DNA of 64,000 nt from Zymoseptoria tritici IPO323 (lineage: Eukaryota > Ascomycota > Dothideomycetes > Mycosphaerellales > Mycosphaerellaceae): NCBI RefSeq assembly GCF_000219625.1, contig NC_018201.1, positions 509,699-573,698 of the forward strand, in the 5' to 3' direction. The translations under genes and the position numbers were made by a program. Of this stretch, positions 14,971-54,850 are shown piece by piece. The notes under the pieces are model-generated. The model was not told the origin of the DNA, ran no database searches, and was given only the letters and a program-made list of their open reading frames with translations. Each line of letters starts with the position of its first letter. Position 1 is the first letter of the stretch.

Positions 14971-15242
14971 TCCGAGGACTGGGAACGTCTATGCACTGGG
15001 TGGAATGGAAACCCCAATATTTCCTGTGCAGCGACTTGAGCTTCATATACTAGTCCTGACGGTTGTCGAAATTCACCCCCTCCCTTGGTTCGACCAGCAC
15101 AGCATGTGGAGAGTTCGAGAGTTTTGTCGCGGCAATCCACCACGCCAGACTATCGTTAGCCGTATTGCGAGCTGTTGCTCGAAGTCGCCGAGGGGCTAAA
15201 ACACTATCCTTACAGTGATGATGATCAGGGTAGCGCTCTCGT

Positions 15243-16016
15243 CGAATTGATCGATCCAGACGCTCTCATTACCACGCATCATTTGAGACATCCGAGGAAC
15301 GCAGTAAGAACCTGGAATCGGCATTGAACAGGGAACATCAAGCCAACCCGTCCACAGTCGAAGGGCCAGCACCGCATCCAAGACTCCTGCATCTCGTCCT
15401 GCGCCAAAATCCTGATGCCTCGAAAGTCTCTCCTCACCCCTACAACAATACCGCCGACGAAGGCATTAACCTCTTCCGCGCCGCTGTCCTTGCCGGACAC
15501 GTTGGAGTCTTGAAACTACTGCTTAGGTGCTTTGCTACCACGATCGGCCGAAGCCATACGAGCACCAGCCCTACACTCTCCCGCCTTAATGCCGACATTA
15601 GCCTAAAGCTGCCTACCTTAATCAAAAGGGCAATATGTACACCCCACTCCCGCGTCCTCTCCCTCCTCCTTGAGCCTACCGTACCATTACCTCCCCAGTT
15701 GGCTCTCCCCTTAGCAGTTCGGCAGAATTAACGACCCTAAATTATCGAGACTCTACTACGGCACGGCGCGGACGCGAACGGAGCTGTCGGGTTGGGGGAT
15801 TAGCGGACGACACTGCTCTATGCGGCGGTGGAAGCGGGGAAGGTGGACGTAGTAAAGGTGTTATTAGCATACAAGGCTGATCCACACGCACAGAGTGAGA
15901 AGTGGGGCACTACGTTAGAGGCTGCGAAGAGGTGTGGACATGGGGAGGTTCAAAAGTTGCTGGAGATAAAAATGATGGGGATAGGGGAGAGAGTTGATGC
16001 GAATTACTTGTTATGA
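15243..16016 (+). pseudogene. Ankyrin-repeat gene fragment broken by C-to-T stops
   Basis: One + frame (15243-16016) carries ankyrin-like units: NLFRAAVLAGHVGVLKLLLR at about 15465, IIETLLRHGADANG at 15741 and LLYAAVEAGKVDVVKVLL at about 15810, then an ending GHGEVQKLLEI. The frame is interrupted at 15729, 15738 and about 15798 by TAA, TAA and TAG, each one C-to-T step from CAA/CAG. Upstream TGA codons and no good ATG show the N-terminus is lost. In life it would have been a protein-interaction repeat protein. Confidence 0.75.
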
Positions 16017-16443
16017 TTGGTATGGCAGTGGTGATTCATGCATGTCTATCACAAAATCTATAGAACGCGGGCGGCCCGCTCGATGGATACTCGGGGAACT
16101 GTGAGACCTGGTGTATGCCTAGCGACTTTCTAGTTCTGGCAGAGGGCAGGTGTGAGGTCAAAGGCCTATCGCAGCGCTACGACAAGACACGAGATTTTCG
16201 TGCCGCTGCGTAAGACCTCCCACACTACTTCAGCGTATTTCGACGCTATGTGTGTGTGCAGATTCAGAAGGCTACAGCAGAATAGTGAATTTCAGATTGC
16301 TATCCAAGTAAGTTGTGCTTGGTTTGGTCCCCCAAGAGGGTCGTTCGTCGAAAGCTATATAACTCCGGATCCTCTTCGTCACCACGGATCTAATATTCTT
16401 AGGAGGAAAGCACCACCCTTAAACTTAACTCGAACGGTAATGA
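16017..16443. other. No supported feature
   Basis: The composition is mixed and a 107-codon ORF lacks any recognisable motif. I see nothing to annotate. Confidence 0.5.
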
Positions 16444-17458
16444 CTAACTGCAAAGGCCCAGGGCCCCAGGACTGAATACAGGAGACCTGATTCTGCGCCC
16501 CGAGCAGAACCCCGGCATGACGTTTGTCGCCACACACGAGCAGTCCCTAAATGCATCCTGACAGATCCCGTCAGAACTTAGCAACGACGTTGCACGGCCA
16601 TTACAATTCTGCTGCTCGCAAGGTCCTGGCTCCGGTCCGCAATGGCCGGGTGTGTTGGCGGAAGGCGTGCATGGACAGCCCACGAACGCGGCAGTGCACG
16701 CAGCAGTGTTGCTTCCTGGACCGTTATTGGCAGCGCCCTGGCAGTTCTGCTCTTCACAGGGTCCGGGAACGGGTCCACAATGCCCTGGGGTGATGTCTTG
16801 GGGCGTGCATGTGCAGCCGGGGAACGCAGCGGTGCACTCGGCGATGTCACTACCTGGAGGTCCAGTGACCACGCCCTTACAGCCGTTCTCTACGCAGGGC
16901 GGCGGCACTGGGGGGCACGCTGCTGGACACTGAGCTAGTTGGCGCGGTCGGAGTGAGGGCGATCCTCCGATGACTTGTTGCGAATCAGCGGCGACGCATG
17001 CGATGTTGGAAACGACGCCGTTCCAAGCCACGATGGGCCCTGCGGGTGTTCGACTCTATGCATTGCCGACGATCCACCGTTTTACAAACGCACCATCGGT
17101 CTCGTCTGGTGAGGCATTTGCATAAGCAGCTTTGATGTCGAGGTAGTGCTCCGAAGCTAGCAGGAGGGCTGCGACGCCGGCAACTGCAGGGGCGGCTGCT
17201 CATCATTAGCTTCTTCGCCTCGTTAGACAGTAAATCCGCATACCGAAGGACGTCCCCGAGAGAGCATCGTTGTTGGCGAAATCGCACGGGACACCGGCTC
17301 CGGGCGCGGACACATCCAGCCAAGCCACTCCTGGTATCCCTTGCGATGAAAGGGATTTTAGGCCGGTATTGTCCACACCGACAAGGGTCTCGCTAGCTCG
17401 ACAAGCGCTTTTGCCGTGGCGATGCCCTCCGTAGCCGTGGCACCGAGCTGTCGCATCT
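16444..17458 (-). pseudogene. Subtilisin-like (S8) protease fragment with three C-terminal Cys-rich repeats
   Basis: On the - strand the catalytic-Ser block SGTSFAAPAVAG is rebuilt by splicing a 48-nt intron (17243-17196, GTATGC donor, CAG acceptor). The preceding text (VDNTGLKSLSSQGIPGVAWL) matches the region before that Ser in S8 proteases. After AYANASPDETDGAFVKRWIV a TAG at 17058-17056 (from CAG) breaks the frame. It then continues to three repeats of about 42 aa with a CxxxxCxG...C..AF..C.C...PG.CGP pattern (about residues 40-180 of the last ORF). A frameshift near 17395 and the missing Asp/His catalytic half show it is a remnant. The parent would have been a secreted protease. Confidence 0.75.
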
Positions 17459-17469
17459 CTATAGCGGAC

Positions 17470-18054
17470 GCTTCTTAAGCTCCATGGCTGGACGGTGCCT
17501 TTGGGGAGTCGCTGACTCTGTCGGAGGCGCAGCTCAGCGCTGTTGGAGGACAGGAGCAGGTTGCACGGGAGCAGCTCAACGTTGTTGGAGGACAGGAGAA
17601 GGTTAAGGTGGCGCCGCCTGGTGAATAGCTCGCGTTCTAGGAAGTGGATCTCATGGCGGAATTCGACATGGCCGAGTTCAATCGCATGTGCGGCGAGTAC
17701 CACCGCGACGTCGCTCGACTCTCTTCTACTACCGCCTCGACTCCGAGTGGAACTTCCGACTTAGAACTGGTGCAGAGTGATGCCGGGGAGTCGCTGGTTT
17801 CGTCAAAGGCGCAGGATCCGCAGGTTGGACAGGCTCAGCATGATAGACAGGCTCAGCATGATAGACAGGCTCAGCATAATGGACAGGCTCAGCAGGTTGG
17901 ACAGGATCCGGAGGGTGGTGTATGGTCGCCGCCCGTTGGATTGGTTGATTTCAGCCAGTTTTTGAATGAGAACGAGGTGCCCGAGGGATGTGCCGGATGG
18001 GAGCAGTTCTTGAATGGACAGAGTGGGGTCGAGCAGTCTGGGTCTGCCAAGTGA
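17470..18054 (+). pseudogene. Gln-rich ORF with QAQHDR repeats, two premature stops
   Basis: A + frame from about 17470 to the stop at 18052-18054 reads through TLSEAQLSAVGGQEQVAREQ, then TAG codons at about 17627 and 17636, then EVDLMAEFDMAEFNRMCGEY. An 18-bp tandem repeat follows (about 17820-17900, QAQHDR units). The two stops are CAG-to-TAG type. It overlaps the subtilase fragment region only at its left edge. The family is unknown. The acidic/Gln-rich composition suggests a regulatory protein, but nothing more can be said. Confidence 0.5.
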
Positions 18055-18059
18055 AGGGA

Positions 18060-18839
18060 AACCCCGGGGTTTGCTGGACTGCGCTGGAGAGGAGTGCATG
18101 TGTGAAGGAGCGAAATCATCGAGAAAAGGGTCATGGGCGATTGAACTCGGTGATCGTCTGACTCTTTCTTTTGTTGCGGTTTTTTTGATATTGTAGCGGA
18201 CTTGCCTTTGCAGATCGGAGGCTGGCTTTCCATTCCAGAGCCAAGGTAGAACTATATCAGTCCACTCTCGAGCTTCGCATTAAGCAAATAAATGCCTTGA
18301 CAAGTCTTCCATAATTCCGGACCTCGTCCGCATGACCGGTGCTGGTGGTTGTTCGTTCGGATCCGCAGTTGTGGACGAATTGGCGATGCGTCCGGAGATT
18401 TTCCATCACAGGTGACCAGCCATGGATGCAGGCTCGCGTTGCTCCATATCAACCCCGCAGCAGGCGCATTAGGACTGCACACGGCCGAAGCCAACTGTGA
18501 GAACAAAGTGCGCAAGCGCATGCCACAGGCCTCCACCACCGTGATGTGGTGACGTTTCAGGCCATGGGGTGCAGTGACCCTAGTGGTGGTTTGAAGGCGA
18601 CTTGAATGGACAACTCAGGTCTGGTTTGTGATGGAAGTCTCCTTTCGTTCTTTCGTCTTGCTCTTTCGTCTTGCTCTTTCGTCTTGCTCTTTCATCCCAG
18701 TGCTGCTCGCGTGCGCATAGTTCTGTATTCTTCGTGCTGGAGTGAGTTGTCGAAGATGTCGTCGATCAGTCATGTCTTGCCCGGTGTTGATGTTCTTTGC
18801 GCACCATGTAGAACTGAAAGAAGGCGCCGAGGGTGAAGA
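18060..18839. other. Gene-poor stretch with a 13-bp tandem repeat
   Basis: About three copies of a 13-mer (TTTCGTCTTGCTC) lie at 18655-18695. Short ORFs on both strands lack convincing protein character. Confidence 0.5.
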
Positions 18840-19298
18840 TTGGCCGCATCCTCGGAGGCGACTTCCGAGTATCCGCACGACGATCATTGGCGCGACGAGA
18901 CGAGACTGAACAGGAGGATCTTTGTACGGAGGGATTCCGCGTGGGTGGTGAGGAGAAAGACGGTGGAATCATCATTTGCCCTGCCGGAATACGTTAGTGC
19001 AGGCAGAAAAATTGAACATGTGTGGCAGTTGTACGAATTCATGACGACTGTCATGACAGGAGACAGGAGCGATGGCCGTGGCCGGGGAGGATCGTGGATT
19101 TGTGGTTTATGTCGTCAACCAGTGACTCTCCATATTCACCTTCGTATTCATACACGTTCATCAGTCTTCCCTCCCGCTTTCACTCCTCCATCCCCTCCCC
19201 CTGGTCCAACGACAGCACGATCCCCGTCTGTCGCGCCCACCTCGCCATCCGGCCAAAAAGCTGCTCCAGTGTCTCCGGCCCGCCCGCCCGCGAGTTGA
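18840..19298 (+). CDS. Possible hypothetical protein, 152 aa
   Basis: This ORF contains a plausible globular stretch (RLNRRIFVRRDSAWVVRRKT) followed by a Cys/His pair arrangement (CGLCRQPVTLHIHLRIH). The last third is Pro/Ser-rich low complexity. No upstream signal or family match is apparent, and the true start and exon structure are unknown. It may be only an exon or a chance ORF. Confidence 0.3.
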   Translation: MAASSEATSEYPHDDHWRDETRLNRRIFVRRDSAWVVRRKTVESSFALPEYVSAGRKIEHVWQLYEFMTTVMTGDRSDGRGRGGSWICGLCRQPVTLHIHLRIHTRSSVFPPAFTPPSPPPGPTTARSPSVAPTSPSGQKAAPVSPARPPAS

Positions 19299-19690
19299 CA
19301 AATCTAACCCCTAGCACACCACATCGCCACCTCCACGCCCTCGCCGAGCCAGGATCGAAAGACATGTAGCAGCCTCCAAATCTCGATATCGGATGGGTCC
19401 TGTGTGATGGAGTCCGGACTGATATGGTTTGACCACATTATTAGGTTTTATGTATCCACAGGCCTTGAAGTGATGATATAGCCCCGACATTTCCGCAAAG
19501 TATAGAGTCGTCTCTTCTCGCTCTCAAGCGGCATGTGAGGCTGTCCGGCCTCGAAGTCCTCCACAGCGATCGAATTCCGTCTTACCGGGTTGTATCCGAG
19601 CAAGAGGTCGTTACGCTTCTACAACCGCTCTTCATTCTCGCTAGAGCAGCCCTCTAAGACGGAGATCTGTCCAATGGTTATGGTCTGCGA
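19299..19690. other. Right margin of the gene island, no supported gene
   Basis: Short ORFs occur on both strands, but none continues or shows motifs. Composition changes to CA/TG-depleted DNA at about 19690. Confidence 0.45.
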
Positions 19691-22286
19691 TCGACACGGT
19701 ATAAGTAGGTTTGTAGGCGGTGTATGTAGCCTAGCTAGCTTAGAGCGCCGGATAATAGAGGACGATTACTAGAGGACGCGTAAGGGTAGTTTAGCGATAG
19801 AACGAAACGAGGCTATAAATACTTAATATAGTATATTCTATCGCGAGGTCTTAGTTTCTATTATAGAAAATTAGTTATATAACTTTAGGATTATATAATC
19901 TAAAGTTAGGTAATTAGATAGGGAATTAATAGCGTAATCTAATATCTAAAAACTCTTTAGTTAAATACGTAGCTAGATAAGTAATTTAATTAATAGTTTA
20001 TAAGAAGTTTAGAGGGCGGTATACTAGCCCCTATATTAGTTATAAGCCTAGATTTATATAAAAAGAGATACTAAATAAGGCTTTAATAGTAAATTTAAGT
20101 CTACTATCGAAAACTACTCTTCCTAAAAAGAAGTAGTTAACTACTACTTACTCGGAATTAGAAAGAGTAGTATTCCGAATAGAAGGTAGTTAAAACTATC
20201 CTCTTAGATTTAGGAATACTAGTTTCCTATTAGAAAAGCGGTTAACTACTACTTACTCTAATTATAATATTTCTACTAAAATAGAAAAGCTTTACTAAAT
20301 TATTACTAAAACGAGTAAGAACGATATTATAGTAAGTAAGAACGATATTAAAGTAAGTAAAGATAATATTAAGATAGTTAGGATAGTATTAGGAATATAT
20401 TTCTTCTAAGAGTAACGTAATCTAATTATAAGTACCTTACTAAATCCGTCGTATTAGGAAGTAATAATACCTTATTTATATATAAAACGAATACTTCTTA
20501 AATTAATCTTAAATATTAAGCTCGATAGTTAAGATAGTTTATCTAATATCGAATAATAATAAGAACTATACTCCGAAGCTAAAGACTCCTTAGGACTACT
20601 ATATATAGTTTAAGACGACGGAAATCTTTATAATATCTCGGGATCTCTAGAAATACGCTAATCCTAATATACTTAAACTAGAATCTCCTTAGGTTACTAT
20701 ACTAAAAGAAATAGCCGCTTTAGGAGCTTTATTAACTACTTTAGAAGGCTCTACCGGATTAGTAAAGCGTAAGACCTAGTTAGGAGGTACTTAAACCTCT
20801 AGTAAGGGAACTAAGGAAGTATTAGGAAGTATATCGACTACTCCTAACGTATCTTAAGTATTTATATAACCTACTTTACTACTAAAGGCTTATAGAGTTT
20901 ATAAGCCTATAGAACCTAATATTCCTTAGCTTAAAGATATTACTAATACGACTTAGGATTCTAAAGTTAGGTAATACGGCCTTCTCTTTAAAGAATATAA
21001 GATATAGAAATAGCTTTAGGACAACTTCTTAACTACTAAAATAGCGGCTATAACCTACCTAATTAATTTAGTAGACCTACTATATTATCGTTATATTATA
21101 GATATAGTAGAATCGATAAGAATACTCTCCCTTAGAGTAATTATAATTAGGCTAAAAGAGTATCTTACCCTAATAAAAGAAGAAGTATACTAATACTTTA
21201 CTAAAAAGCTAGCTTCTCTTAAGAGGGTAAAGAAGATTACTAATACTAAAAACTAGGTTTAGGAATAGACCTATCTATATAGAGTAATCGATATAGCTAA
21301 GATACTTAAATAATTTAAAGTTAAGCTACGATTTATTAATACTATATCTTAGAACGACTCGGCTTATAGATTAGCTCTTAAAGTTTATAATTAGGTCGCG
21401 TTAAGACTCGGCGCTCTACTACTTAAGATTTATAAATTAATATCGATATTTATTTAGTATAAGCGAACTAAGCCTCTAGAAAAGCTTAGCTTCTTAATAA
21501 TCTTATTTTAGGGAGAAGCTACTACTCTATTAGTAAACGCCTTAATAGGTAGGAATTAATAGTAATAGATTAAAGTAGGACCTCTATTAGGAACTAGATC
21601 CGGATCTAGAACTAGATTAGGAAAGAAGACTCTACCGATATATAAACTCGTTATAGGTATATAGAGTAAGAATATATATAAGCTTCGTAAAGATTACCTT
21701 ATTATTAATAGTTTACTTTAAGAGAAACTTACTAAAACTTAGAAGAATAATAATATCTTTAAGGTAAAGCTATAGTTCTATATAAAGTATCTTTAGAAGA
21801 ATAAGGGATACTATTAGACTACTATAAAGAAATTTTATAGTCCTCTTATAATATAGATTATAGAATTATATTATAATAAGTTAGGAAACGAGAAGTTAAG
21901 TAGTTAGGACTAGGATAATACTATTAAGGAATACCCCCTATATTCTAAGGAGCTATTCTATAATATCCTAACTACGCTTCTCTAGTAATTATAATATTAA
22001 CTTAATTTAAGATATACCTTAAAGAGTAAGTTCTTTAGGACGGCGGCTCGAATATCTATATTATAAACTATCTAGGACGGCTAGGGTTTTAGGCGTATAT
22101 AGTACTAAAGAATAATAAGATAGTATCGATAAGGAACCTTTAGATCCTTATTATTATAATCGGGATAGCTTTCCTAAAGATTAAGATAGTCGATAGATAG
22201 ATACTCCTAATTAGACTCGAGAATTATCTATACGTCCTAAACTTCTACCTAAATATTATTAGTAGAGCTAAGTTCTTTTAGTAGAA
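19690..22286 (+). mobile_element. Ty1/copia gag-protease fragment, RIP-mutated, truncated by telomeric repeats
   Basis: The + strand carries a decayed gag-like region (about 20700-21550, for example ITYLINLVDLLYYRYIID). It is followed by a protease-like DGGSNIYIINYLGRLG at about 22034 and the pre-integrase boundary block YLYVLNFYLNIIS at about 22225-22265. In-frame stops are TAG/TAA. The frame is cut mid-domain at 22286, where TAGGG repeats start, so integrase and RT are missing. This marks a broken chromosome end that was capped. Confidence 0.78.
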
Positions 22287-22304
22287 TAGGGTTAGGGTTA
22301 GGGG
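22287..22304 (+). repeat. Interstitial telomeric repeat at the LINE copy 1 3' junction
   Basis: About three TTAGGG-type units, the last with four Gs, read in the same orientation as the terminal telomere. They lie between the truncated copia and the LINE 3' end (TTCATTG from 22305). The same arrangement occurs at 40197-40220. Confidence 0.92.
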
Positions 22305-23225
22305 TTCATTGTACTTGTTTATATAGGCTAGTCTACCTTTGCACCTGATCTGAACTAAAGCCCTATCTAAGCCCTTACTACCGGCTCTTTTGGCCGTCTT
22401 TAGAGGGGAGGAAACAGACCTACGCTCCTACGTAAAGCGCCTCGCGATGCACGGCACCGCAGCTACTCCTAGCCTAACTACGTTTTACGGTGTCCTTTTA
22501 ACTATCTCCCGAGTTGACCAAACTGCTAAAAAGAGAGACTACCGATAGGCTAGTCCGCATCCTAACGCAAAATATCGCTCCGGCAATCGCTCACCGTCTA
22601 TCGTACCTTAGGTTTCCAAACCTCCTAGGTAACGGACGAGGTGTACGTCTCCTTATCCGCCCGAAACTATAACCCCGTCTCGTTAAGGGGGAACATCCCG
22701 CTTTAAGACCGTCCGGTAGAGCTCTGTCCTCCCTCCGTCCGGCGTATCTACTATCGGAGACATTCGATTCTAATCGAGCTGCTTATACACTAGTCTACAA
22801 GTGCTTCCCGAACAGTTTAGGGAGTGCCGTCTTCCCTTCGGCTAGAATTCCTCCTCTAGTAATCGTCGTCGTCTACTCCTCTCCCCTACTACGCCGTCGC
22901 CTTCGCATTCCTCTAAGCCTCCTACTACTCTATAGAGGTACTAGTTTTCTTCCTCCCGCTCCCCGGCTTTAAGAGGAAGCAGCCGCAGATCTAGGGTACA
23001 TGCCTTATATCTACTGCTAGGCCTTCCGGATAGAGTTAATCGTCTGGTGCGGAGCTAGTCCGGGCCTCGCCAGTCGCCTACGTCTCCTACGTCGTAGCGC
23101 AGCCTTTTAACGTCCTACCGATCGGACGCCTACTTTTATCTTAAGGGAAGAGACTCCTTTTTAATAGGGTAAACGCCTAATTTATCCTCGAGGGATGATC
23201 TCCGCTTTTACGTCCCGGGTCGACG

Positions 23226-23456
23226 GAGCTACTTTACGTCCTACCTATCGGACGGAGCCTTTTTACGTCCTACCTATCGGACCGAGCTACTTTACGTCCT
23301 ACCTATCGGACGGAGCTACTTTACGTCCTACCTATCGGACGGAGCTACTTTACGTCCTACTTATCGGACCGAGCCTTTTAACGTCCTACTTATCGGACGG
23401 AGCCTTTTAACGTCCTACTTATCGGACGGAGCCTTTTAACGTCCTACTTAGGACAG
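23226..23456 (-). repeat. 29-bp tandem repeat near the LINE 3' end, 8 copies
   Basis: Eight units of the type GAGCTACTTTACGTCCTACC plus 9 bp occur here. Copy 2 has five (41138-41282). A stray related unit occurs at about 23100. Confidence 0.88.
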
Positions 23457-25106
23457 TGTGCACTAGGTCTGTGCCGCCGCTTCCTCCGCTTCCTCCTTCG
23501 CAGCTTCCTCCTTCGTAATCTTCGTCGAGATTCGCTCGAGGATCTCGTTAGCTCGCTTCTAGCATCCTGTATTTAGAAGGAAGTCTACCTCGGTAAACTT
23601 TGTGTTCGTAGTGCCTATTTTCTTATATATCTTCTGCTTCGCCCGTCGTTCCTTCCTCGAGAGCTAGCTTGTCCTATTTTCCCGGTAGCAAGTCTCGTGT
23701 CCTTAGATAAATTTGCTCGTACAGACGTAGAAACTATAGGTATAGAAGGTTCTACGCCGATACTAGAGGAAGCGCTTCTAGAAGGACCGCGGCGCCTTTA
23801 AAAAGTAATCGGCTCCTTATAAGTCCCGCTTTAGGCGGCTTTCTTCCGGTATAATCTAGGTTAGGCTCTACTTCTTAGCCTCTTCGGCTATATCTTCCTC
23901 TCTCTCCTAGCGTAGGAACCGCTAGACAGAACGGCGGTCTTCGCTAAAGCTTCGGTCGCGAGGCTAGGACTCGGGTGTCTTGCGGTACTTCTCGTAGAGC
24001 TTGTCCTCCGTTAAGCGCCGGAAGAACGCTTTAGGTTTCTAGATTAGTAATCCTAACTTCTGTAGCGGACTTTCTTCTGGAGCGTACTTCTTTACAACCT
24101 AAAAGCTAGTTTTTAGTGCCTTAAATCGCGAGGGTAGGGCGGAGATTCCTAGGAGATTGCGAGTAAAGTGAGGGTTAGAAGCATAACCCGAGATCTACTT
24201 TGTTAGCTTCGTAACATCCTTAGTCGTCTCGTCCTAGAACTTAGGAGAGTCCTCGGCAAACGCCGCGAGGAGAGGCGCGCTATACTCGAACATCGGTGCG
24301 AGATACTACTAATAGACTCGTAGGCGATGCGCGAAGCCCTAACTATCCGCGTCGAGGGTAAGGAAGTCGCTTCGTTTCCCGGCCTGTTCGAGCCGGCTCT
24401 TAAGGTGCCTCCTTAAGTTAATCCCTCGCGCCGTTATAGGAAATCCGAGGTAGGTATATACCTCTCTCCTCGGTACCTCCGTACTAAAGAGGTAGATCGC
24501 CTCCTACGAAGACGCCGGCGCTAGATAGGCGCATTTTTTAATGTTTAGGGCGATACGGTTGGCGGAGGACTAGCGCTCGAGGATCTAGATTAGTATACGC
24601 ACCTCGTCCAAGTCGGTAGCGAAGAGAACACTATTATCGGCGAAGAATAGCGCGCGAGGAATCGGCGGCGCCGTAGGCATTACGTCGGAAGAGCCGGCTA
24701 GGGCGAGTGTCCTAGGTCGATTCAAGTCCTCGAGCAAGCCATCGATAAAGATGTTAAATAGATAGGGCGAGAGGGGTGAGCCCTATAGAACTCCCCTCGT
24801 CCGCGGAAACTACCGAGAAGCCGTACAATCCGAAACGATAAAGGACTAGACGTCGAAAAAGTAGAGGCTCGTAATTAGAGCTAGCATATTCTCCGGACAT
24901 CTCCGCCGGCGTAGAACGTCTGCGAGTAGTACATAATCTACGACGTTAAAGGCGGCTTAAAAATCGAGGAACATAGTGTATATAATCCGGCTCGATTCGA
25001 GGAGGGCGTAGACGACCGCGGCGTTCGTTACAGTAGAGTAGTAACTTCGAAATCCCGCCTAGTTAGGATGCATCCTCGCCTATGTCCTACTATTAAAGCG
25101 CCGGAG

Positions 25107-25917
25107 GGACGGCCGAACAGACTGCACCTTCACGCGGTGGCCGTCGTAAGTACCTTCCTCGGAAGGGAAACCAAGACAGTCTGGAAGAAACCTCCTCGAA
25201 AACCTCTCGAAATCCGCCTGAAATCCTTCTCGAAATCCGCCTCGAAATCTTTCTCGAAATCCTTCTCGAAATCCTCCTCGAAATCTACCTCGAAATCTAC
25301 CTCGAAACACAAGCTACAGAACAACAGCACGATTCGAACGCCCTCTACGCTACAAACGCTGCAAACAAGAAGAAGAAGAAGAAGAAGAAGCAGTCCACTC
25401 TGCCCTATACGCGCACCTCCTCGAAATCCGAACCGAAATCGCACCTCTTTCCCTCTCGGAAAAGTGCACTTTAAAGAGCTGGAACAGTCGGTGGAATCCA
25501 CAACTCTGCGATCAACCTGCGTAGCTGTATGCGTTTGGAAGCGGCATGCAGTTCCACAAAGGCATATTGAGGACAAGAGAAGACAGCGAGTTGGACAGCT
25601 GCTGTGTATTCGAATTTTGTATTCGAATTTGTAGCGTGTGTGTGTGCGAAGCGGAAGGATCCGCTGAAAATTCTGCAAAAAGCTTGGCGCGAAAATTCTG
25701 CAGCCCCGGCTGCAGACAACAACACTCGTTTGATTTCCTTTGTCTTGCGCTGTTTTGAAGTCCTTCGGCAGATTCTACTTGCAGGTCCTGCCTTAGGCAC
25801 GGGGTTTCCCCTAAGGTCAAAGAATACAGAAGATTCTGATTGTAAATAGATCTACTGCCTTGCCTTTAGGGCAAGGCCGTCCTACATAGTCATAGACTCC
25901 AAAAGGACGTAAATGGA

Positions 25918-25976
<59 letters not shown>
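25107..25976 (+). mobile_element. Retroposon (SINE-like, 870 bp) with a 56-A tail and 10-bp target duplication, copy 1
   Basis: It is flanked by direct repeats AGCGCCGGAG at 25097-25106 and 25977-25986. It starts GGACGGCCGAACAGACTGCA and ends in about 56 A residues (25920-25975). It interrupts LINE copy 1 inside the RT coding region. CA and TG are present at normal levels, so it arrived after RIP of its host. It carries 12-bp repeats (CTCGAAATCCKC type, 25196-25310) and a GAA run at about 25367-25390. No RT is encoded, and no pol III box, tRNA or 7SL resemblance is seen. It was probably mobilised by a LINE. The second copy is at 45522-46462. Confidence 0.88.
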
Positions 25977-26670
25977 AGCGCCGGAGGAGTAGGCGCTCGA
26001 AGACCTTTCGAAACATCGTTACTAGCGAGATCGGACGAACGTTGTTAGCATCCTTCGCCGGCATCGTACTATCCTCCCGTCGGGTCTTATCCTTAACGAC
26101 CAGATAGACAATAGTTTCGTTCTAGCTCTGCGGCGTCTTACCATTCCGGAGACAGGAATTATAGAGGGCGGCTAGGATCCGGAGGAAGCTCGTCGTCGCG
26201 AGGGTTTTTATTAGACGGATGTGTACCCTATCGTTTCCGTAGGCCTTCGTAGCATCCTAGTAGGTAAGCTCCTATATTATCTCGTCGATCGAGAAGGAGA
26301 GCAAGGCGGATCGATCGTTAATAGGAAACATCTCCTGTACCAGGAGGGTCGCTGTCGAAACGAATCGACTAGTAAATCCCTCTGTTACTTCGTCGATTGC
26401 CGTTATCCCTTTTGCCTTCGCTGCTAGGGTCGGCACTAGCAGTATATTCTTGTTTACGTAGCGCTACGCTCTCTTATAGAGACGGACCGTCTTAAGCGTC
26501 CTGCTATCGGCGTCTAGGTTCGGCTTCGCCATTGCCTTAAGACGCTAGTCCTTCTTCTTCTTAACACGGCGGCGTAGCTACTTTAGCTTGCGAGCAGCGT
26601 CGTTATTATCCTCGGCTTGCTTTCGCTTTGGGTCTATTATTACCTTTCGAGGTCCGTCGTTCTTCTCTCT

Positions 26671-26891
26671 ACCTCTATTCTTCTTCTCTCCCTCTTAATC
26701 CTTCTTCTCTCCCTCTCGATCCTTCTTCTCTCCCTTTCGATCCTTCTTCTCTCCCTCTTAATCCTTCTTCTCTCCCTCTCGATCCTTCTTCTCTCCCTCT
26801 CGATCCTTCTTCTCTCCGCCTTTATCCTTCTTCTCTCCGTCTCGATCCTTCTTCTCTCCGCCTCTATTCTTCTTCTCTCCGCCTCCGTCAC
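26671..26891 (-). repeat. 21-bp coding repeat (KKDREGE heptads) in the LINE copy 1 linker
   Basis: About 11 tandem 21-mers encode a charged seven-residue repeat between endonuclease and RT on the - strand. Copy 2 has about six at 43605-43735. The repeat is expected to form a charged helix. Confidence 0.85.
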
Positions 26892-29800
26892 TTATATCCT
26901 CCGCCTTTTGTCTACCCGGAGGACGATTTCGACAACGCGTAGAGGCGAGTCCTAGCACGGCTTCGCTTACCTACTAGCAGAGCGATACAATTTCCGTATT
27001 CCGCTTGTCTACATCGGTGCTTATATAGTACAGATGCCGTCGATGCCGCGCCCTTCTCTCCCAGCTATAGTAGAGCGCCTACGCCGTATCGTCGTCGTTT
27101 AGCCGGCTTATCGCATAGCGTCGAAGTTGATACGGCACAGCTGATCTAAGTTAATACAGCACGGCTAATCTACCCGGAGTACCCGCAGTCGGGTCTAGCT
27201 GGAGGTAGAGCTAGTAGATATAGTCGGTATTCATCTTCTCCGTCGGTCGCGGTAGAGCTAGCGTCGTATGCGGTAGCGTCCGGCGGACAAAGTAGTAGTT
27301 AGTCGTTAGTTGTTTCTCGTATACGGCGTCCGCAATCGTAATCGGCTCCTAGATCGGCATTAGATAGGTTATCGCGGAGTCCTCGATCTATCGCGAGACG
27401 ACCTTCCGTCTCGGAAGCAGCAACGCCTTCCCGCTCTAGAGAGACATCTTACTAAAGCGGACGTTAATATCTCCGAGAACGACATCTAAGCCGGCAACCG
27501 CCTCGAGCGTAGACCGGACCTCATCTAGCTTCCGCTTAGGGGGAAAGTAGACTCCGCTAATCGTTCCCTAGTCCGTCGGCAGGGTTATAGCGTCTGTCCC
27601 GATAATCTACGCCTCGCCGGTAAGCTAACTTCGCGCGCGTACTGTCCCTATTACTAGAATCCTATAGCCTAAGCGACCCTTTCTCAGCACTATATCGGGC
27701 TTTACTATAGTCGTAATTACGCGGTAATCCGCTTAGCGCTTCTTATACTCGACGAACTAGGTCTTAACGATAAAGAGGTAGTCGAGGACGTCGTCGTTAA
27801 TTAGCGCCGCTAGGATCGGCTACCTATTATCCCCTAAGCCCCGGATGTTAATACATCTAATCCTAGCATTCCTCCTAGTCTCGCAACCCGCGAGAGGACT
27901 CGCCTCCCCTAGATGCCTCTCGACTCTCTCTCTTAGAAGATGCTCCTTAAGTCTCTCTCTTCGAGCCTAGGCTATCCTCCCGTCCCGCCGGCTCCTCTTC
28001 TAGCCCCTACTATATTAGCTCGGCTTTAAACTCGTCGAAGATACCGGCACTCTTCGCCTTCTACTATACTACTTACCTTTTAAATTTGTTATCGGCTTCT
28101 CGATAGCGATTAACGAACTCGTAGACCTAATCTATAGACGATCTCCTAGGAAGGTTTATAAAGCGGGGTTAGAGTAGTTTCCGCTTATAGTCCGCTAAAG
28201 GAGAGGTTAGTTTTGTTCGTAGCTTCGGCTCCGCGGAGAGAATCTAGAAGGTCTTCGCTTTTAGGGAGGGCGTTACTAGTTCGGCACGCGCGGCTAGGTC
28301 CGCGATCTACAGCCTCTACCGTCCCGACGAAGAGAATAGAAAGGGAGTAAGCTCCTTCGCCTTTGCAGGAGAGGGCGTATCCGGAGAGGGCACAAGGGGA
28401 AGAGGGACGGATGCTATAGAAAAGGGCGAGAGAAGGTCGTAGTCCTTACTAGGAAAGAGGTCGTAGGGTCGTACCTTAGGAGGAACACTCTTCCCTCTAC
28501 GCTTCTCCTCGACGGAATAGTGCGGAAGACTCTTCCTCTGCTGTCTCTCCTTAATTAACTCCGCTCGCGCGTTGTTCTAGCTAGGCGGTAGGGCTCTATT
28601 CGTAGCGGGTCTCGATTCCTTCTAGTACTCGCTCGCGCTATCTTTAGGTCTACGAGGGTCCGGAGGATCTTTACTCGAGCAATAAGGAGGACCTTTGTCC
28701 GAGCGATAAGGAGGACCTTTGCCTAGGGTATATAGGAGGCGGTTAACTAATTGCTTCGTCTCCTTCGCCGCGCGGATTAGGCAGGCCTCGGCGTATTTCT
28801 AAAAGAAGGGTATCTATACGATAGGCTTCGGTATAGGGTCGACTAGAATCGCGGTAGGGTCGGTCTCCGGGACGAAGATAGTAGGGATCGTTAAGGGGAT
28901 ATCGATCGAAGGCAGCCTAGTTAAAGGGATGTCGGTAGGGAGCCTCGTAGAAGGAATGTCCGTAGACGGAATGTCCGTAGAAGGAAGATTCGTCGACGGA
29001 ATCTTCGTCGAAGGGATGCTCGTAGAAGGAAGATCCGTAGAGGGAATATCTAGGAACACGTCCTCCTTATACCGGATCGTCTTCCTTAACCGACAATCCG
29101 CGGACGCTATCTCGATCGAAGACTCGGACTCGAGTGCTCGCTTCGCCGGCGCGGTTACCGGCTCCTCTAGTCGATCTTTAATCTAGGCAACGAGCTAGGC
29201 CGTATCCTTACTATAGTTACGAAGCTGGTCTAGGATCGTTTGCGCTATAAGCGTAAGTCTCGACTAGCCGATTTCCGTAGTAACGCTCTTAATCTACGCC
29301 TTAACAGTACGCCTTTTGTTTGTACGACACTTCTTGTACTCGAAGGTACGGTAGTATCGTCCTTCCGTATCGGGATGTCCGGTCTTGTTCCTTAGGACGC
29401 CAAAGTAGTCGATCTCGCCGCCGCACAGGATAACGCCCTTATAGAGCTCCTAGAGGGCGTCTACAAAGGCCGTTAGACCTTCCTAGGGCCGTACCGCGCT
29501 CGTCGACGGTTTAGATAACATCCGAGGGTTAGAGGGTAGAGAGGGCAACGCCGAGGGTAGAGGGGAGGAGGAAGCGACAAGGAACGTCGAAGGAGAGGTC
29601 GGCGAAGTAACGAGTCGGGATCGGTAGTAGGAGGCACTCGAAGGAGAGGGCAACCTAGGTAGAGAGTACTTACGGATAGTTCGAAGTCTCCACCGTAGAG
29701 GAAAACCGAGGCTAAGAGCGTAAACGGGTAGTAGCGAGGCTCTAGAGAGGAGGGAACACATCCAGCTCTTATAGGGCCGGGGTGTAGTCGTCCTTCTTAC

Positions 29801-30052
29801 AATTACGAGTAGGGTTAGCCTTACGATCGTCGATAGTCATCGTCGATAGCTATCCTCTTATCTCGCTGTCTACCGGGGTCTACGGCTTGATTACAATCGT
29901 CGCACTCGACGAGGTAGTAGTATAAAGGGCCACCCTCCCCTCCGTACTTACTCGTCCTACTCGTCGTCTCTTCCTCTACTCCCTGGTCCGAGAATGGGCT
30001 GTCCCCGGCATCGTTATATCGTCCTCTCCAGGCATCGTTACCATAAGGCAGT

Positions 30053-33000
30053 TTGGGGTTGGGGTTGGGCGGTCTCCGCAAGCTGAAGCCGGCTTTCGGC
30101 ACTGCTAATTGGTCTAGCGATCTAAAGCCGCCTTTCGCGACTGCTAATTCGTCTACTAGTCGCGGGGTCTACACCCTTACTTTTTCTAATACACCGAGAC
30201 GACGAGGACGCACCCGTATACCGCCCTACTCCCGGTGCAGCTTCGGTTCTTACTTAATTCCCTCCTACGAGAGGTCGCTCGGAGCGATGCCTAGGCGAGC
30301 GGTTCACCAGTCTCCGCGGTCGCAAGCCGCCTTCGATACTGCTACCTGCGAACGTCGGTTATAGACTTAGCGAGAGCTTCGCGCACGGCGACGACAGGAT
30401 GCTCTTGTAGACACCCTACAACCGTAGGCACTGGTCGCAGCCGGACTATCTGTCGTCGTAGGACTATCCGTCGTAGCGAGCGCGGCGTAGTAGTAGTAGC
30501 ACTGTCCGACCGAGCTCGCAGAAGACGCCCCGGAGAGAGCTATCCTTAGGAGGAGCCCTCGGAAAATCGCTCCTAAACCTCCTTCGCACGCAGCGCTACT
30601 ACATAGACCGGTCGACGAGTCCGACTAGAACACCCTCGTTAGAGGCATCGTAGCGACAGGTATCCGCGCTGACCAGCAGGCTGTACCCCTACTACCAGTT
30701 ATCGACGAATCTAAAACAGCCTAGGAGCCCGACCCTCTACTACCGGTTATTAACGAATTCGAGTTACTAGTTATTAACGAGTTCGAGTCGGACTAGGAGC
30801 TTGGCCCTCTATCACTAGTTATCGACGAATTCGAGACAAATTAGGACCTTAACCCTTCTGACCTCGACGACTAGTCGCTTACCGCTTACGTAGAAGAAGA
30901 CGAGGAAGAAGAGGAGCAAGAAGAGGATTACGTCGAGGACAACTTTTCGGATATACATAGCGACTAGTTAGTTACTTTAGGTAGTAGCGCTACCGACGAG
31001 GACGAGAGGGTAGGGACAAGGCACACTACAACACCGGTTATCGACGAGCCTAAGACACAGGAGCCTGTTCCTTAGGATCCTAACGACTAGTCGCTTACCG
31101 ATAGCGACGTAGGAGAAGAAGAAGAAGGAGACGTCGAGGACGATTCGTCGTCGCATACTAGCAGCGACCAGTCGAGCGTACGAGGTAGTAGAGGGACAGA
31201 TTAGGATAAGAGCAAAGAGGTAAGGAACACTACAACTCCCTATACTATTCGGACACTCTAAAGAGCTTTTCGCTGTAGCGGCTACAAGTGTTCCCAGGCA
31301 ATAGGAGATAGCGCCAGTCTAGAGAGGCAGGGGACTAGTCAAACGCTCCGCTAGTTCTGCCGTAACTAGAGCCTTAAGGTTACTAGAGAAAGCGATAAGG
31401 AGAGTTAAGACCGGTCCCCGGACAGAGACACAAACATAGAGGAACGATGTACGATTCCCGATATAATGTAACATATTGTAGAGCATAGAGTTCTCCCGGT
31501 CTACAGTTAAGACTAGATCCGCTACATCGCATAGGAAAGACTCCTCGCTAGCAGCACTAGTGCACCGGACGATAACCGACCGGTCCTATCGCTCGAGCGG
31601 TCCTGTCTAATATACCAGCAGCGGCCCTTTACGATAACGCGCTAGTAGGACATTAATGCCCTATTCCTACTACTAACCTTACTTGCAGCCTATCGGTATA
31701 GCATCTAGTTCTGTTACTAGCTACGGTTTACAAAGACTCTTTCTAGCAACTAGTATACACCTATCGGCCGGTTAGGCATCCGCCTAACGACATATAAGCA
31801 CTTCCGGCTCGCCTATAGCTTCGGTGCTACTAGCTTCGATACCTACATCTTCTTCCTAAACCTACCTTTGCTATCTACAAAGTAGCAACGAGCGGTCGAC
31901 AAATAGCGCCGCTGCTACCTTAACCGGATCTAGCAAGCGCATTTTATTAACGAAATCTTTATACCTGCCCTCGAAGACACCTACCCGGACGACATTCTCT
32001 AGTACTATCCTTACACTTTCGAACAGGCGTATAACGGGTCCTACGCTCGCTAGCGGCAGTCGATTCGGTCGACTAACTAGTCGTTTAGCGAGCTATTCTA
32101 CGACCTTCTAAATACATAGCCGAGCGATCAGGCCCGGCGTCCTAGGGCACTACTACTCGCGCGTCTCTAGACCCGTATTTGTGAACGCCTAGCAGACGAC
32201 GAAGAGGACTGGCAGGAAGCGGAACTGATTACAGTGCGCTACGGCTGCAAGCTCGAGCTCCGTAAGACGTCTATCGCCAGCCTTCGGCAAGTAGTCGACC
32301 GGTCCCTTAAACAACAATTTAACAAGGAGTACATCGACTTCGACACTACCTTCGTAGATCTTGCGTTTAAGGACCTAGCCTACTAACCTACAAACCGGTC
32401 GAGGGTTCATCGAGAACCCCTCGTTCTACTCCGCCGTACGAACTATAACGAATACTAAGCTAGCTAGCTTAATATAAAGCTAGAGCTCTACTAGTAGAGT
32501 AGGACCTTTGATAGTACTACGGTTCGCGGCGAATTAAAGCGCGAATCACCTAAGCGTTTAGGCGGTGTCGCCTTTATACAAGGGTACAACAACATTAAGG
32601 ATCTCTTTGCACTAGTCGACCGGTCGACCAAACCTCTGTTCTCCTAGCCGGTGTATAGCAGCCTCGCCTTCTCACAGAGTACAGCTAATAAAGCCTAGGC
32701 GGTCTCCCGGCGAGGGCAGGCTGCTAAGGCTCTACAGCGCCGTCGCATCTTTGCAGCGTTCAAGTATAAAGTCCGGTTAGTCCACCGCTCGCTCCGGTTG
32801 TGCGAGGACAGTCTATACGGCTTCGGGGTCCGAGAGGAATATCGGATATCCTGGGACTTATTTCAGAAAGCACAAGTCCCTGCTGGTCTCGATTAACCGG
32901 CTCTTGTACAGCATACGAATAGACAGATACACTGGCCCTTCTTTGTACTCGAGAGGCGCGATGTACTCTGCTATATCCGGACCTAGATCAACCGCTGGCT

Positions 33001-37198: not shown

Positions 37199-38679
37199 CC
37201 CCTAGGTTCGCTAACTTATTTTATGTCTTCTAGCTACTTTGGTGTCGTTGCTGTAGCAGGGAGTGACAGTCCAACCGCCTTTCGAAACGCGTGGAATAGT
37301 CGATTCGGGAGCGGTTTAGTAAGGCCGTCCGCTATCATCTTCTTAGTCTCGACCCATACTAGCTCGACATCTCCTTCTTATACCCGTTTGCGGATAAAGT
37401 GAGTGTCTACGCTAAAGTGTTTTGATCGAGAGTAGAAGGTAGGATTCTTCGCGAGTGCTATCGCGCCTTAGTTGTCGTAGTATATAATCGTCGCTTGCGG
37501 TCCTTAATTTCCTTCGGGAAGGAGTTAATTAAGTAGCGACTTTAGCTAGATAGCTTCCTTCGCAGCCTGCGTCTGTCCTATGTATTCCGCTTCGACTGTC
37601 GATAGCGCTACCCTCGCCTGTCGTTTGGACGACCAGCTGATAGCTCCGCTACTAAGGCTAAATATCTAGCCTAACGTAGAGCGGCGTGTCTCGATGTCTC
37701 CTGCCTAGTCGGCATCTGTGTACCCGCTTAGTAGTCGTAGGTCTCCCTAAAACACGAGTTCAAATTGAATAGTGTGACGAAGGTAGGCCATGATCCGCTT
37801 AACGAGTTTCTAGTGTGCTTCCGTAGGGTTGGCGCAGAACCTACTGACAACAGATACTAAGTAGGCGATATCTGGCCGAGTACCGAGCATGGCGTACATT
37901 AGTGATCCTACTGCCGATTAGTATTTCTTACGTAGTTCGTCTAAAGCTATATAGCCTTCTTCTGCTAGTTCGATCTTTGCGGACGAATCTATAGGCGTAG
38001 TCTTTACTTTCTATTCCTATATGTTGTGGTCGCGGAGGAACTTCTTAATGTAGGCCTGTTGGCCGAGGTAGATCTTTCGGTTGACGCGATCTCTTCGCAC
38101 AGTTATTCCGAGGTAGTAGGCGTAAGGGCCAAGGTCCGACATTTCGAATCTCTTCGAGAGTTATGCTTTGATGTTGCTAATCTCCTTCTTTAAAGGCCCA
38201 ACGATAAGTAGATCATTAACGTATACTACGATAAAGACATTGCCTCGGATAAAGACGCTAATGTCGGCGTCGAGTAGCTTAAACCCGATCTTTTCGAAGT
38301 AGGCGGTCAATGTCTCGTACCAGGTTCGAGGGGACTGTTTAAGGCCGTAGAGAGCGCGATTAAGTAAGCAGACGTCGTCTCCCTTAGCGAATTCATGCGG
38401 CTGTTCGACGTAGACAATGTCCTTAATAAGCCTATAGAGGAAAGCAGTTTTGACGTCCATTTGTTCGATCTCGTAGTCTAGCGCGGCGGCGATGGCGAAA
38501 ATGGCCTTGTAGCTCATTAGTTTGACAACGAATGCGAAGGTCTCGGTATAGTCCGAGCCCTCTTCTTGTTTGTATCCTTTAACAACCTATCTAGCTTTCT
38601 ACTTAAGGATCTCGCCGTTCGGTCCTCGTTTAAGTTTAAAAACCCATCTTCCTGGCAGGATATTCGCGGTCGAAGCGAC
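37199..38679 (-). mobile_element. Ty1/copia pol 3' part (RT and RNase H), cut by telomeric repeats
   Basis: The - strand encodes the RT C-terminal half, including a clean 118-codon ORF at 38517-38161 (YEIEQMDVKTAFLY...FIVVYVNDLLIVG, where the YVDD-type motif reads YVND). RNase H follows and ends NRLFHAFRKA near 37270. The sequence is homologous to 1900-3300 but less RIPed. The 5' side stops in the RT N-terminus at 38679, exactly where TTAGGG repeats begin. Confidence 0.88.
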
Positions 38680-38701
38680 TTAGGGTTAGGGTTAACCCTA
38701 A
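38680..38701. repeat. Head-to-head telomeric repeat (fusion scar)
   Basis: Two TTAGGG units run directly into TTAACCCTAA, so G-rich and C-rich telomere strands meet head to head. Truncated copia lies on both sides. Confidence 0.85.
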
Positions 38702-39640
38702 AGTCTGAAAATCCTTATACTTCAGCGCTAAGGTCAGCGCCGAGGATTACATGACCCGGATTTTGCTTGAGGATTTGAGGTCGACGGCGATAACTTGATG
38801 AACGATCGGTTAAACTGTCCTTAAAATCCGCATGCTCCTTCTAAACGGTGTTGGCTCGGAGCTCGCTGTCGCCGAAAATCAATAGCGACAATACCGACGT
38901 CGCTGTCGCCGTCTTGGCGCAACTCCCCTAGGTTCGCTAACTTATTTCATATCTTCTAGCTACTTTGGTGTCGTTGCTATGGCAGGGAGTGACAGTCCAA
39001 CTGCCTTTCGAAACGCGTGGAATAGTCGATTCGGGAGCGGTTTAGTAAGGCCGTCCGCTATCATCTTCTTAGTCTCGACCTATACTAGCTCGACATCTCC
39101 TTCTTGTACCTGTTCGCGGATAAAGTAAGTGTCTACGCTAAAGTGTTTTAATCGAGAGTAGAAGGCAGGATTCTTCGCGAGTGCTATCGCGCCTTAGTTG
39201 TCGTAGTATATAATAGTCGCTTGTGGTCCTTAATTTCCTTCGGGAAGGAGTTAATCAAGCAGCGACTTTAGCCAGATAGCTTCCTTCGCAGCCTGTGTCT
39301 GTCCCATGTATTCTGCTTCGACTGTCGATAGCGCTACTCTCGTCTGTCGTTTAGACGACCAGCTAATAGCTCCGCTACTAAGGCTAAATATCCAGCCTAA
39401 CGTAGAGCGACGTGTCTCGATGTTACCAGCCTAGTCGGCATCTGTATACCTGCTTAGTGGTCGATACCCGCTTAGTGGTCGTAGGTCTCCCTAAAACACG
39501 AGTTCAAATTGAATAGTGTGACGAAGGTAGGCCATAATCCGCTCAACGAGTTTCTAGTGTGCTTCTGTAGGGTTGGCGCAGAACCTACTGACAACAGATA
39601 CTGAGTAGGCGATATCTGGCCGAGTACCGAGCATAGCATA
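38702..39640 (-). mobile_element. Ty1/copia LTR-A and RNase H end, copy 3
   Basis: LTR-A (38702-38923) is followed on the - strand by the RNase H region, which is highly similar to 37210-37900 of copy 2. The chain breaks at about 39640 after the block equivalent to AMLGTRPDIAYSV. There it is joined to gag sequence, so most of pol is deleted. Part of the unit has a 19-bp local duplication near 39450-39475 (CCGCTTAGTGGTCG). Confidence 0.8.
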
Positions 39641-40196: not shown

Positions 40197-40220
40197 TAGG
40201 GTTAGGGTTAGGGTTAGGGG
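40197..40220 (+). repeat. Interstitial telomeric repeat at the LINE copy 2 3' junction
   Basis: Four TTAGGG-type units, the last with four Gs, lie between the truncated copia gag and the LINE 3' end. Same orientation and same junction as 22287-22304. Confidence 0.93.
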
Positions 40221-41137
40221 TTCATTGTACTTGTTTATATAGGCTAGTCTACCTTTGCACCTGATCTGAACTGAAGCCCTATCCAAGCCCTTGCTCCCGG
40301 CTCTTTTGGCCGTCTTCAGAGGGGAGGAAACAGACCTACGCTCCCATATAAAGCGCCTCGCGATGCACGGCACCGCAGCTACTCCCAGCCCAACTATATT
40401 TTACGGTGTCCTTTTTACCATCTCCCGAGTTAACCAAACCGCCAAAAAGAGAGACCACCGATGGGCTAGTCCGCATCCTAACGCAAAATATCGCTCCGGC
40501 AATTGCTTACTGTCTATCGTACCTTAGGTTTCCAAACCTCCCAGGTGACGGACAAGGTGTACGTCTCCTCATCCGCCCGAAACTATAACCCCGTCTCGTT
40601 AAGGGGGAACATCCCGCTTTAAGACCGTCCGGTAGAGCTCTGTCCTCCCTCCGTCTAGCGTATCCACTATCGGAGACATTCGATTCTAATCGAGCTACTT
40701 GTACACTAGTCTACAAGTGCTTCCCGAACGGTTTAGGGAGTGCCGTCTTCCCTTCGGCTAGAATTCCTCCTCCAACGATCGTCGTCGTCTACTCCTCTCC
40801 CCTACTACGCCGTCGCCTTCGCTTTCCTCCAAGCCTCCTACTGCTCTACAGAGGTACTAGTTTTCTTCCTCCCGCTCCCCGGCTTTAAGAGGAAGCAGCC
40901 GCAGATCTAGGGTACACACCTTACATCCACTGCTAGGCCTTCCGGATAGAGTTAATTGTCCGGTGCGGAGCCAGTCCGGGCCTCGCCAGTCGCCCACGTC
41001 TCCTACGTCGCAGCGCAGCCTTTTAACGTCCTACCGATCGGATGCCTACTTTTATCTCGAGGGAAGAGACTCCTTTTCGATAGGGTAAACGCCCAATTTA
41101 TCCTCGAGGGATGATCTCCGCTTTTGCGTCCCGGGTC

Positions 41138-41282
41138 GACAGAGCTACTTTACGTCCTACCTATCGGACGGAGCCTTTTTACGTCCTACCTATTGGACGG
41201 AGCCTTTTAACGTCCTACCTATCGGACGGAGCCACTTTACGTCCTACCCATCGGACGGAGCCTTTTAACGTCCTACTTAGGA
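41138..41282 (-). repeat. 29-bp tandem repeat, 5 copies, in LINE copy 2
   Basis: Same unit as 23226-23456 but only five copies. The copy number difference shows expansion or contraction since the copies separated. Confidence 0.88.
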
Positions 41283-43604: not shown

Positions 43605-43735
43605 GTCGTTCTTCTCTCTACCTCTATTCTTCTTCTCTCTACCTCTATTCTTCTTCTCTCCCTCTCGATCCTTCTTCTCTCCGCCTCTATCCTTCTTCTC
43701 TCCGTCTCGATCCTTCTTTTCTCCGCCTCCGTCAC
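43605..43735 (-). repeat. 21-bp heptad-coding repeat, about 6 copies, in LINE copy 2
   Basis: Counterpart of 26671-26891. Encodes KKDREGE-type units on the - strand. Confidence 0.85.
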
Positions 43736-48030: not shown

Positions 48031-48334
48031 AGCCGTCCTCTGTAGGCTGTTGAATCTACGTTGGACTTGCTATCCGCATATTTTTGCTAACGAGGAGCTC
48101 GACGACGTAGTGTAGTGCTCTCCCGTCGTAGTAATTCCTACCTATATTTAGTACTACCCCCTCCTTATCGGGCACCCGGTAGAAAGCGTAACAAAGCTGC
48201 ATATAGTAGCGCTAGCGTCGCAGGCTCTTATATTATAGGACTTCTATGTCCGTAGAGGTTTCTACGGTGGCTGTTCTTAAGCGTCGAGCAGGAGGTGTAT
48301 GCCGCTTACGTGTTCGGCTGCTAGGTTAGCTCTC
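48031..48334. other. Left flank of the 56-bp repeats, no gene seen
   Basis: CA/TG-depleted DNA with no legible frame. It may include the true 5' end of LINE copy 2. Confidence 0.4.
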
Positions 48335-54512: not shown

Positions 54513-54534
54513 CGTTAGCAAGTAGGCAGTTAGG

Positions 54535-54850
54535 AAGGTTACGGGAGGAGGCGACTGCGATAGATAGGACTGCGGAGAATTCGATAAGGGAGGAGGCGAT
54601 TACGGTAGATGCGACTACGCTACGAATGCGACAGATACGACCGCGGAGGATTTGAGGAGGAAGGAGGCGATTACACTAGATGCGACTACGCTACGATTGC
54701 GACAGATGCGACTACGGAGGATTTAAGGAGGAAGGAGGCAATCGCGCTAGATGCGACTGCGCTACAATTGCGACAGATGTAACTACGAAGGATTCGAGGA
54801 GGGAGGAGGCAATTGCGCTAGATGCGACTGCGCTACAATTGCGATAACAA
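54535..54850. repeat. 71-bp tandem repeat, about 4.5 copies
   Basis: TAGATGCGACT recurs at 54606, 54677, 54748 and 54819, exactly 71 bp apart. It lies just upstream of the 54512 gene start and retains an alternating GGAGG/GCGAC pattern. Confidence 0.9.

Follow-up and report, generated by a model that had tools for sequence, protein, structure and literature searches.

The window analysed here comprises the final 64 kb (C18:509699-573698) of a 573,698-base contig of the fungus Zymoseptoria tritici IPO323 and carries two copies of a long interspersed nuclear element (LINE) whose 3' ends are joined to short telomere-like tracts. Since the window finishes in a true telomere (63873-64000), its + strand represents the G-strand of the right chromosome end. 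On this strand, TAGGGTTAGGGTTAGGGG at 22287-22304 is directly followed, from 22305, by the complement of the LINE 3' end, and an identical LINE-tract join is found in copy 2 at 40197-40221. The features of the window are the following.

22287-22304, + strand: telomere-like tract TAGGG TTAGGG TTAGGGG, adjoining LINE copy 1 at its 3' end
22305-30040, - strand: LINE copy 1, with its 3' end at 22305 and a 5'-side truncation at 30040, nested insertion included
23222-23450, - strand: 29-bp tandem repeats in the LINE 3' region
23526-25106, - strand: open reading frame 2 (ORF2), second piece of the reverse transcriptase (RT) with the C-terminal part, not an open frame; RVT_1 is matched in the sister copy L034
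25108-25976, + strand: nested retroposon-like insertion with a 56-nt A run at its end and little sign of repeat-induced point mutation (RIP)
25978-26400, - strand: ORF2, first piece of the RT, not an open frame
27181-27867, - strand: ORF2 endonuclease stretch, of apurinic/apyrimidinic endonuclease (APE) type by its relatives and, judging by coordinates, in frame with the RT start
29186-29425, - strand: ORF1 stretch containing GRYYRTF..KKC; in L038, RYYR-CCHC is matched weakly and without significance
40197-40220, + strand: telomere-like tract adjoining LINE copy 2 at its 3' end
40221-48976, - strand: LINE copy 2, reaching at least to ~48976, its true 5' end not defined
48977-56900, no strand: distal block; parts of it are found again, in unchanged order, beyond many long LINE copies, and it may belong to the LINE or travel with it
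63855-64000, + strand: terminal telomere, variant units followed by perfect TTAGGG

LINE 3' ends were searched for across the assembly with a 33-base pattern spanning the join, allowing up to 3 mismatches, and the count takes in copies that keep the last 33 bases. This search returned 79 LINE 3' ends, with 0 for the reversed-pattern control. They are present on 34 of the 42 chromosome ends and lie 184 to 85,346 bases from the chromosome end (median 23,645), a zone that makes up 9.0% of the genome, and in all 79 the LINE 5' end points toward the nearer chromosome end. As a control for patterns containing GGGG, a pattern of the LINE body, leaving out the GGGG and the telomeric part, found 78 places, every one among the 79 (reversed control 0); no non-telomeric LINE 3' junction, for which a sequence-only reading of the window had suggested that the assembly be searched, was detected by it. 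One LINE 5' region (C1:6041960) has no 3' end in range. The arrangement described in that reading for copy 1, a LINE joined to telomeric repeats and with its 5' end facing the telomere, thus recurs throughout the family, a tract being present in all 77 distinct contexts that were read of the 79 3' ends. A LINE that is limited to chromosome ends, uniformly oriented and joined to such tracts suggests copying onto worn chromosome tips beside telomerase. The explanation favoured here, to which we give about an even chance, is that a LINE with a likely APE-type endonuclease was reverse transcribed onto short, newly healed chromosome ends and later spread by recombination.

The join itself is constant, while the tract is variable. 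The LINE is preceded by four G's in 74 contexts and by five in 3, together with a telomere-like tract in register, and GGGG was found in 77 of 77 also when the pattern did not require it. No A tail is present at the LINE 3' junction, the repeats adjoining the LINE directly. Perfect TTAGGG runs measure 3-9 nt in 4 contexts, 11-13 nt in 15, 14-16 nt in 9, 17-19 nt in 27, 20-22 nt in 5 and 23-24 nt in 17, and none is longer. When variant units are allowed, the tracts comprise 1-9 units (four or fewer in 62 of 77), with a median of 21 nt and a maximum of 59 nt, and variant units such as TTTAGGG, TAGGG and TTATAGGG account for 80 of 204 interstitial units (last unit omitted). Since tract length and variants differ among copies, it is ruled out that the TTAGGG is a fixed part of the 3' untranslated region with nothing telomeric beyond, which the sequence-only reading had named as a possible objection. 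Twelve terminal telomeres, read alike, contain 15-27 units (90-162 nt) with 10 variants among 262 units, all in the first four; this unit count omits a further short interrupted tract before the terminal telomere of C5R. Short and rich in variants by comparison, the interstitial tracts indicate that the LINE sits on short, start-like stretches and not on normal-length telomeres. Priming on a normal telomere, as first envisaged, is therefore unsupported or at best open. A C precedes the tract in 35 of 77 contexts (p 0.0045, T excluded) and the terminal telomere in 6 of 12 cases (p 0.03), a mild hint that a single activity starts both. A chance origin of the telomere motif was considered for the window and ruled out: TTCATTGTAC occurs twice (22305 and 40221) against a chance expectation of 0.06, TTAGGGTTAGGG, with at most 1 mismatch, has 25 occurrences where 0.65 would be expected (19 belong to the terminal telomere and 6 are interstitial, of which 2 are at copy 1, 3 at copy 2 and 1 at 38680), and reversed-pattern controls gave 0 and 0 genome-wide.

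Tract length also bears on two other routes of insertion. The endonuclease of the LINE might itself insert the element into the telomere tract, as in SART1, TRAS1 and MoTeR1, and the part of the telomere beyond the insertion would then be lost or grow back. A target of 90-162 nt should then often leave long proximal tracts, whereas no perfect run among the 77 exceeds 24 nt and even variant-containing tracts stop at 59 nt; this objection loses weight if longer tracts were lost later, but such insertion seems quite unlikely. Alternatively, the last two to four perfect TTAGGG units could be templated by CCCUAA repeats with which the LINE RNA itself ends, and the RT could then prime on any broken end. 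Perfect runs of 11-24 nt adjoin the LINE in 73 of 77 contexts and none is longer, 59 of the 77 runs fall in the classes of 11-13, 17-19 and 23-24 nt, and the GGGG is constant, all in keeping with such a template. However, terminal telomeres begin similarly, variant units lie upstream, two junctions carry a single unit and the template is proposed without an RNA end having been seen, so that an RNA-borne origin is regarded as rather improbable.

The lengths of the copies point to incomplete reverse transcription. Of the 79 copies, 35 extend over ~6.5 kb or more, into the LINE 5' region; only the best candidates were scored for 5' regions, copy extents and distal-block matches, and those counts are lower bounds. 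Among the 44 copies without the 5' region, another LINE or the chromosome end follows within 5.5 kb in 30 and not in 14. For 21 of these 30 the limit comes within 1.0 kb (p 7.6e-10 on comparison with a uniform distribution; 2.9e-9 after merging one equal-spacing pair), which corresponds to 21 truncations per kb in the first kb and 2 per kb beyond. In the table of copy extents, the gap to the next feature sets an upper bound on LINE length (at C7R, other DNA precedes the telomere). Such a pile-up is expected from incomplete reverse transcription and not from random breakage, and 5' truncated copies with a constant 3' end are what a LINE should leave. Seven chromosome ends (L050-L055 and L040) finish as a tract, a LINE fragment of less than 1 kb and the terminal telomere; together with the uniform polarity, this puts LINE copies right at the tips of chromosomes, their 3' ends facing inward, in the manner of HeT-A and TART. 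At L056 (C7:2663300-2665280, ~1130-1170), a 13-nt piece of the LINE 3' end lies between two telomere-like tracts with another LINE next to it, and may be read as an aborted or template-switched addition. Across the 77 contexts, plus as many as 12 telomere ends, 21 joins could be sized (18 onto LINE and 3 onto telomere), and microhomology amounts to 0 or 1 nt in 16 of the 18 joins onto LINE.

The long copies present a different picture. At least 22 of the 35 run on into a common distal block, and recombination has therefore very probably contributed. On many chromosome ends, the distal sequence found at window 51480-52900 and 54900-56900 is present again past the long copies, its parts in unchanged order and with 92-95% identity in long matches, and the LINE 5' end was not found, as the shared sequence extends past it. 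On these comparisons, the simplest reading is that long copies move together with the distal block by subtelomeric recombination. Yeast Y' elements, which are not retrotransposons, have a uniform polarity and a short internal telomere tract at their inner border and spread by recombination. The main rival explanation holds that recombination alone acted here as well: one old telomere-joined LINE with its distal block would have spread like Y', worn ends with a few TTAGGG invading the tract at the LINE 3' end and copying to the chromosome end, and later breaks, healed by telomerase, would have produced the truncated copies. The recurring order of the distal-block parts is in line with this, as is a boundary formed by tract and LINE 3' end in 77 of 77 contexts. 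Long subtelomeres shared between chromosomes are described for this species (Dhillon et al., 2014; PMC4522978), and break-induced replication is described in MoTeR arrays (PMC7367193). Random breakage of a long block is, however, unlikely to place 21 of 30 truncations in the first kb, and the 13-nt piece between two tracts at L056 is awkward for this scenario, which on balance appears unlikely as the sole cause.

The type of the element was assessed from its RT and from relatives. The RT is matched by RVT_1 of Pfam with an E of 5.8e-23, as expected for a LINE-type RT, and is nearest to R2 and LINE-1 by sequence and, by the predicted fold of a relative, to LINE-1 and R2. In Foldseek, the RT of this relative gives an E of 7.0e-23 to LINE-1 and of 4.2e-7 to the best telomerase, in a comparison that included no Penelope reference. 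Pairwise comparisons only were made with L087 (a 1148-aa frame, taken as Tad1 family 623 of Dhillon et al.), with 22% identity over 327 residues, and with P0001, a relative without a clade assignment, with 55-56%. The RT metal motif reads FADD in 4 and FADN in 7 of 11 places (one codon pattern). An N-terminal AP-endonuclease-like domain in frame with the RT is recognised through the predicted fold of a relative (44% identity), and the endonuclease of the family is, on this prediction, likely of APE type, in agreement with the sequence-only reading, rather than restriction-like or absent. Genome-wide scans with PF14529 and PF03372 gave no match inside the LINE copies compared by eye. Relatives carry a CxC..H..C motif near the C-terminus, and no RHD motif was seen by eye in P0001, no profile search for a restriction-like endonuclease having been made. 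In Pfam, ORF1 is weakly matched (E 0.13), and no ORF1 homologues were found at E 0.001; no DNA of the relatives was found in viral_contigs and genome_contigs. The LINE family bears the mark of RIP, with an index (CA+TG)/(AC+GT) of 0.34 in both halves of copy 1 versus 1.11 in the nested insertion. The insertions at 25108-25976 and 45522-46462 in the two LINE copies are related, non-autonomous and retroposon-like, and show less RIP than the LINE; the former is flanked by an 11-nt repeat at 25097-25107 and 25977-25987 (flanks read by eye) and the latter by a 13-nt repeat.

A non-LTR (long terminal repeat) element of this kind is already in print. Family 4 of Mycosphaerella graminicola (Z. tritici) is described as restricted to subtelomeres, with TTAGGG at the 3' end, the 3' end away from the telomere and truncated tandem copies, and is labelled as putatively Penelope-like, endonuclease-lacking and 3.4-3.5 kb in length (Dhillon et al., 2014; PMC4522978). 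The LINE described here is very probably this family, from the same genome, matched by its description and not by sequence comparison. The observation is thus already known, and the novelty that the sequence-only reading had attached to it falls away, as family, 3' TTAGGG and polarity were all published in 2014 (PMC4522978). The printed type and length, in contrast, do not fit: the RT is LINE-1/R2-like, the endonuclease likely of APE type and 35 of 79 copies extend to ~6.5 kb or more. The published view, in which the element is Penelope-like, lacks an endonuclease and uses its terminal repeats to pair with the telomere, accords with the subtelomeric location, 3' TTAGGG and polarity (PMC4522978). 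A Penelope-like element should have a GIY-YIG endonuclease or none, whereas an APE-type domain is predicted here and no GIY-YIG was found in Pfam scans of the family pieces and eight relatives, and this view is considered very improbable. No reclassification of family 4 was found in the literature searched; published transposable element sequence libraries, which were not compared, may name it as a LINE.

HeT-A and TART of Drosophila add head-to-tail at chromosome ends with the 3' end inward; to our knowledge, their host has no telomerase and no TTAGGG, whereas here long TTAGGG telomeres cap the LINE copies. SART1 and TRAS1 are insect elements of the R1 clade; these silkworm elements resemble the LINE in their telomere targeting, and the endonuclease fold of TRAS1 is that of a relative of the family. 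SART1 requires at least three TTAGG repeats and a poly(A) tail (PMC7265360), in contrast to the A-less junction found here. MoTeR1 of Magnaporthe and FoTeR of Fusarium oxysporum are likewise fungal, located at chromosome ends with the 5' end outward and the 3' end on a few TTAGGG, and have truncated copies beside telomere repeats (PMC12857005, PMC7367193), FoTeR typically carrying 3.0-7.0 TTAGGG copies at its 3' end (PMC12857005). They differ in their restriction-like endonuclease and their grouping with CRE/SLACS (PMC12857005), the endonuclease of the present LINE being N-terminal and of APE type by its relatives.

Around the uniform polarity, constant junction, short variant-rich tracts and truncated copies followed by a telomere or the next LINE, as they stand in the sequence, the favoured explanation can be set out in steps. 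First, a chromosome end would break or erode. Next, a telomerase-like activity would add a short, partly faulty TTAGGG seed, whose G-strand 3' end would prime the LINE RT, so that the LINE RNA is copied from its 3' end and TTAGGGG plus the LINE complement results. Copying would frequently halt in the first kilobase, and the new end would receive a normal telomere or another LINE. Finally, long copies with the distal block would be spread among ends by recombination. We infer the order of these steps, the enzyme that makes the seed, the addition to the end from its 3' hydroxyl and the dispensability of endonuclease cutting. Tentatively, and with somewhat less than even confidence, the LINE RT may extend the same very short healed end where telomerase began a seed of few repeats, competing or cooperating with telomerase and giving rise to HeT-A-like arrays in a TTAGGG organism. 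Several points weigh against the favoured explanation. The continuation of so many long copies into the same distal block is better explained by recombination than by retrotransposition, no copy with intact proteins is shown and insertion is known from sequence alone. The endonuclease stretch of the family itself is not recognised by Pfam, and the hint from the base before the tract is of limited strength. The 24-nt limit on perfect runs may have arisen because longer interstitial tracts broke and were lost, a process that has been proposed for MoTeRs (PMC7367193), and the perfect run is only 3-9 nt long in 4 of 77 contexts. In addition, 3' repeats are reported on 38 of 49 truncated elements (Dhillon et al., 2014; PMC4522978), which leaves 11 without.

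The surroundings of the two copies modify the initial description of the locus. The interval 22287..30042 had been read as LINE plus repeats; the join and the minus-strand LINE stand, but the LINE gives way to another subtelomeric repeat after 30040 and is interrupted by the insertion at 25108-25976. A truncated copia to the left of copy 1, in which the chromosome was supposed to have broken, was not recovered: there is no RVT_2 at window 20200-22286 among the best 150 of 159 candidates, and the copia pieces at copy 2 have no match in 15000-22286. Instead, a copia RVT_2 (C18:547688-548359, window 37990-38661) flanks copy 2 on the left. Within scrambled copia at 38680-38703 lies a head-to-head telomere motif, TTAGGGTTAGGGTTAACCCTAA, resembling a possible telomere-fusion remnant. 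The left flanks of copies 1 and 2 were compared with the remaining window, and no repeat of them was found on the far side. The repeat beyond copy 1 (window 30041-31200), with TTTGGGGTTGGGGTTGGG near its inner end, is a second one limited to chromosome ends, with at least 22 matches of the same polarity toward the ends; it adjoins LINE copies at two distinct truncation points and is possibly the methyltransferase-bearing repeat of Dhillon et al. (2014). Pfam scans of this repeat and of the distal block returned nothing above the cut-off. In the 5' part of the LINE, 56-bp tandem repeats (window 48333-48450 and 48702-48845) vary in extent among copies. As judged by eye, the ends of a hAT-like insertion at window ~49905-50905 are inverted (CAGT..ACTG) and an 8-nt repeat flanks it, in a stretch common to the chromosome ends of L043 and L049.

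MoTeR and FoTeR, the telomere-attached fungal LINEs compared here, use a restriction-like endonuclease. If the explanation favoured above is true, a fungal lineage of APE type shares their polarity and has similar 3' junctions, which would suggest that end attachment arose more than once and that a short telomere seed may be what it hinges on, and not which kind of endonuclease is used. The question of whether a LINE acts at ends that telomerase has only begun to heal is thereby made testable. For Z. tritici, the result would correct the published type and length of a family that is present on 34 of 42 chromosome ends.

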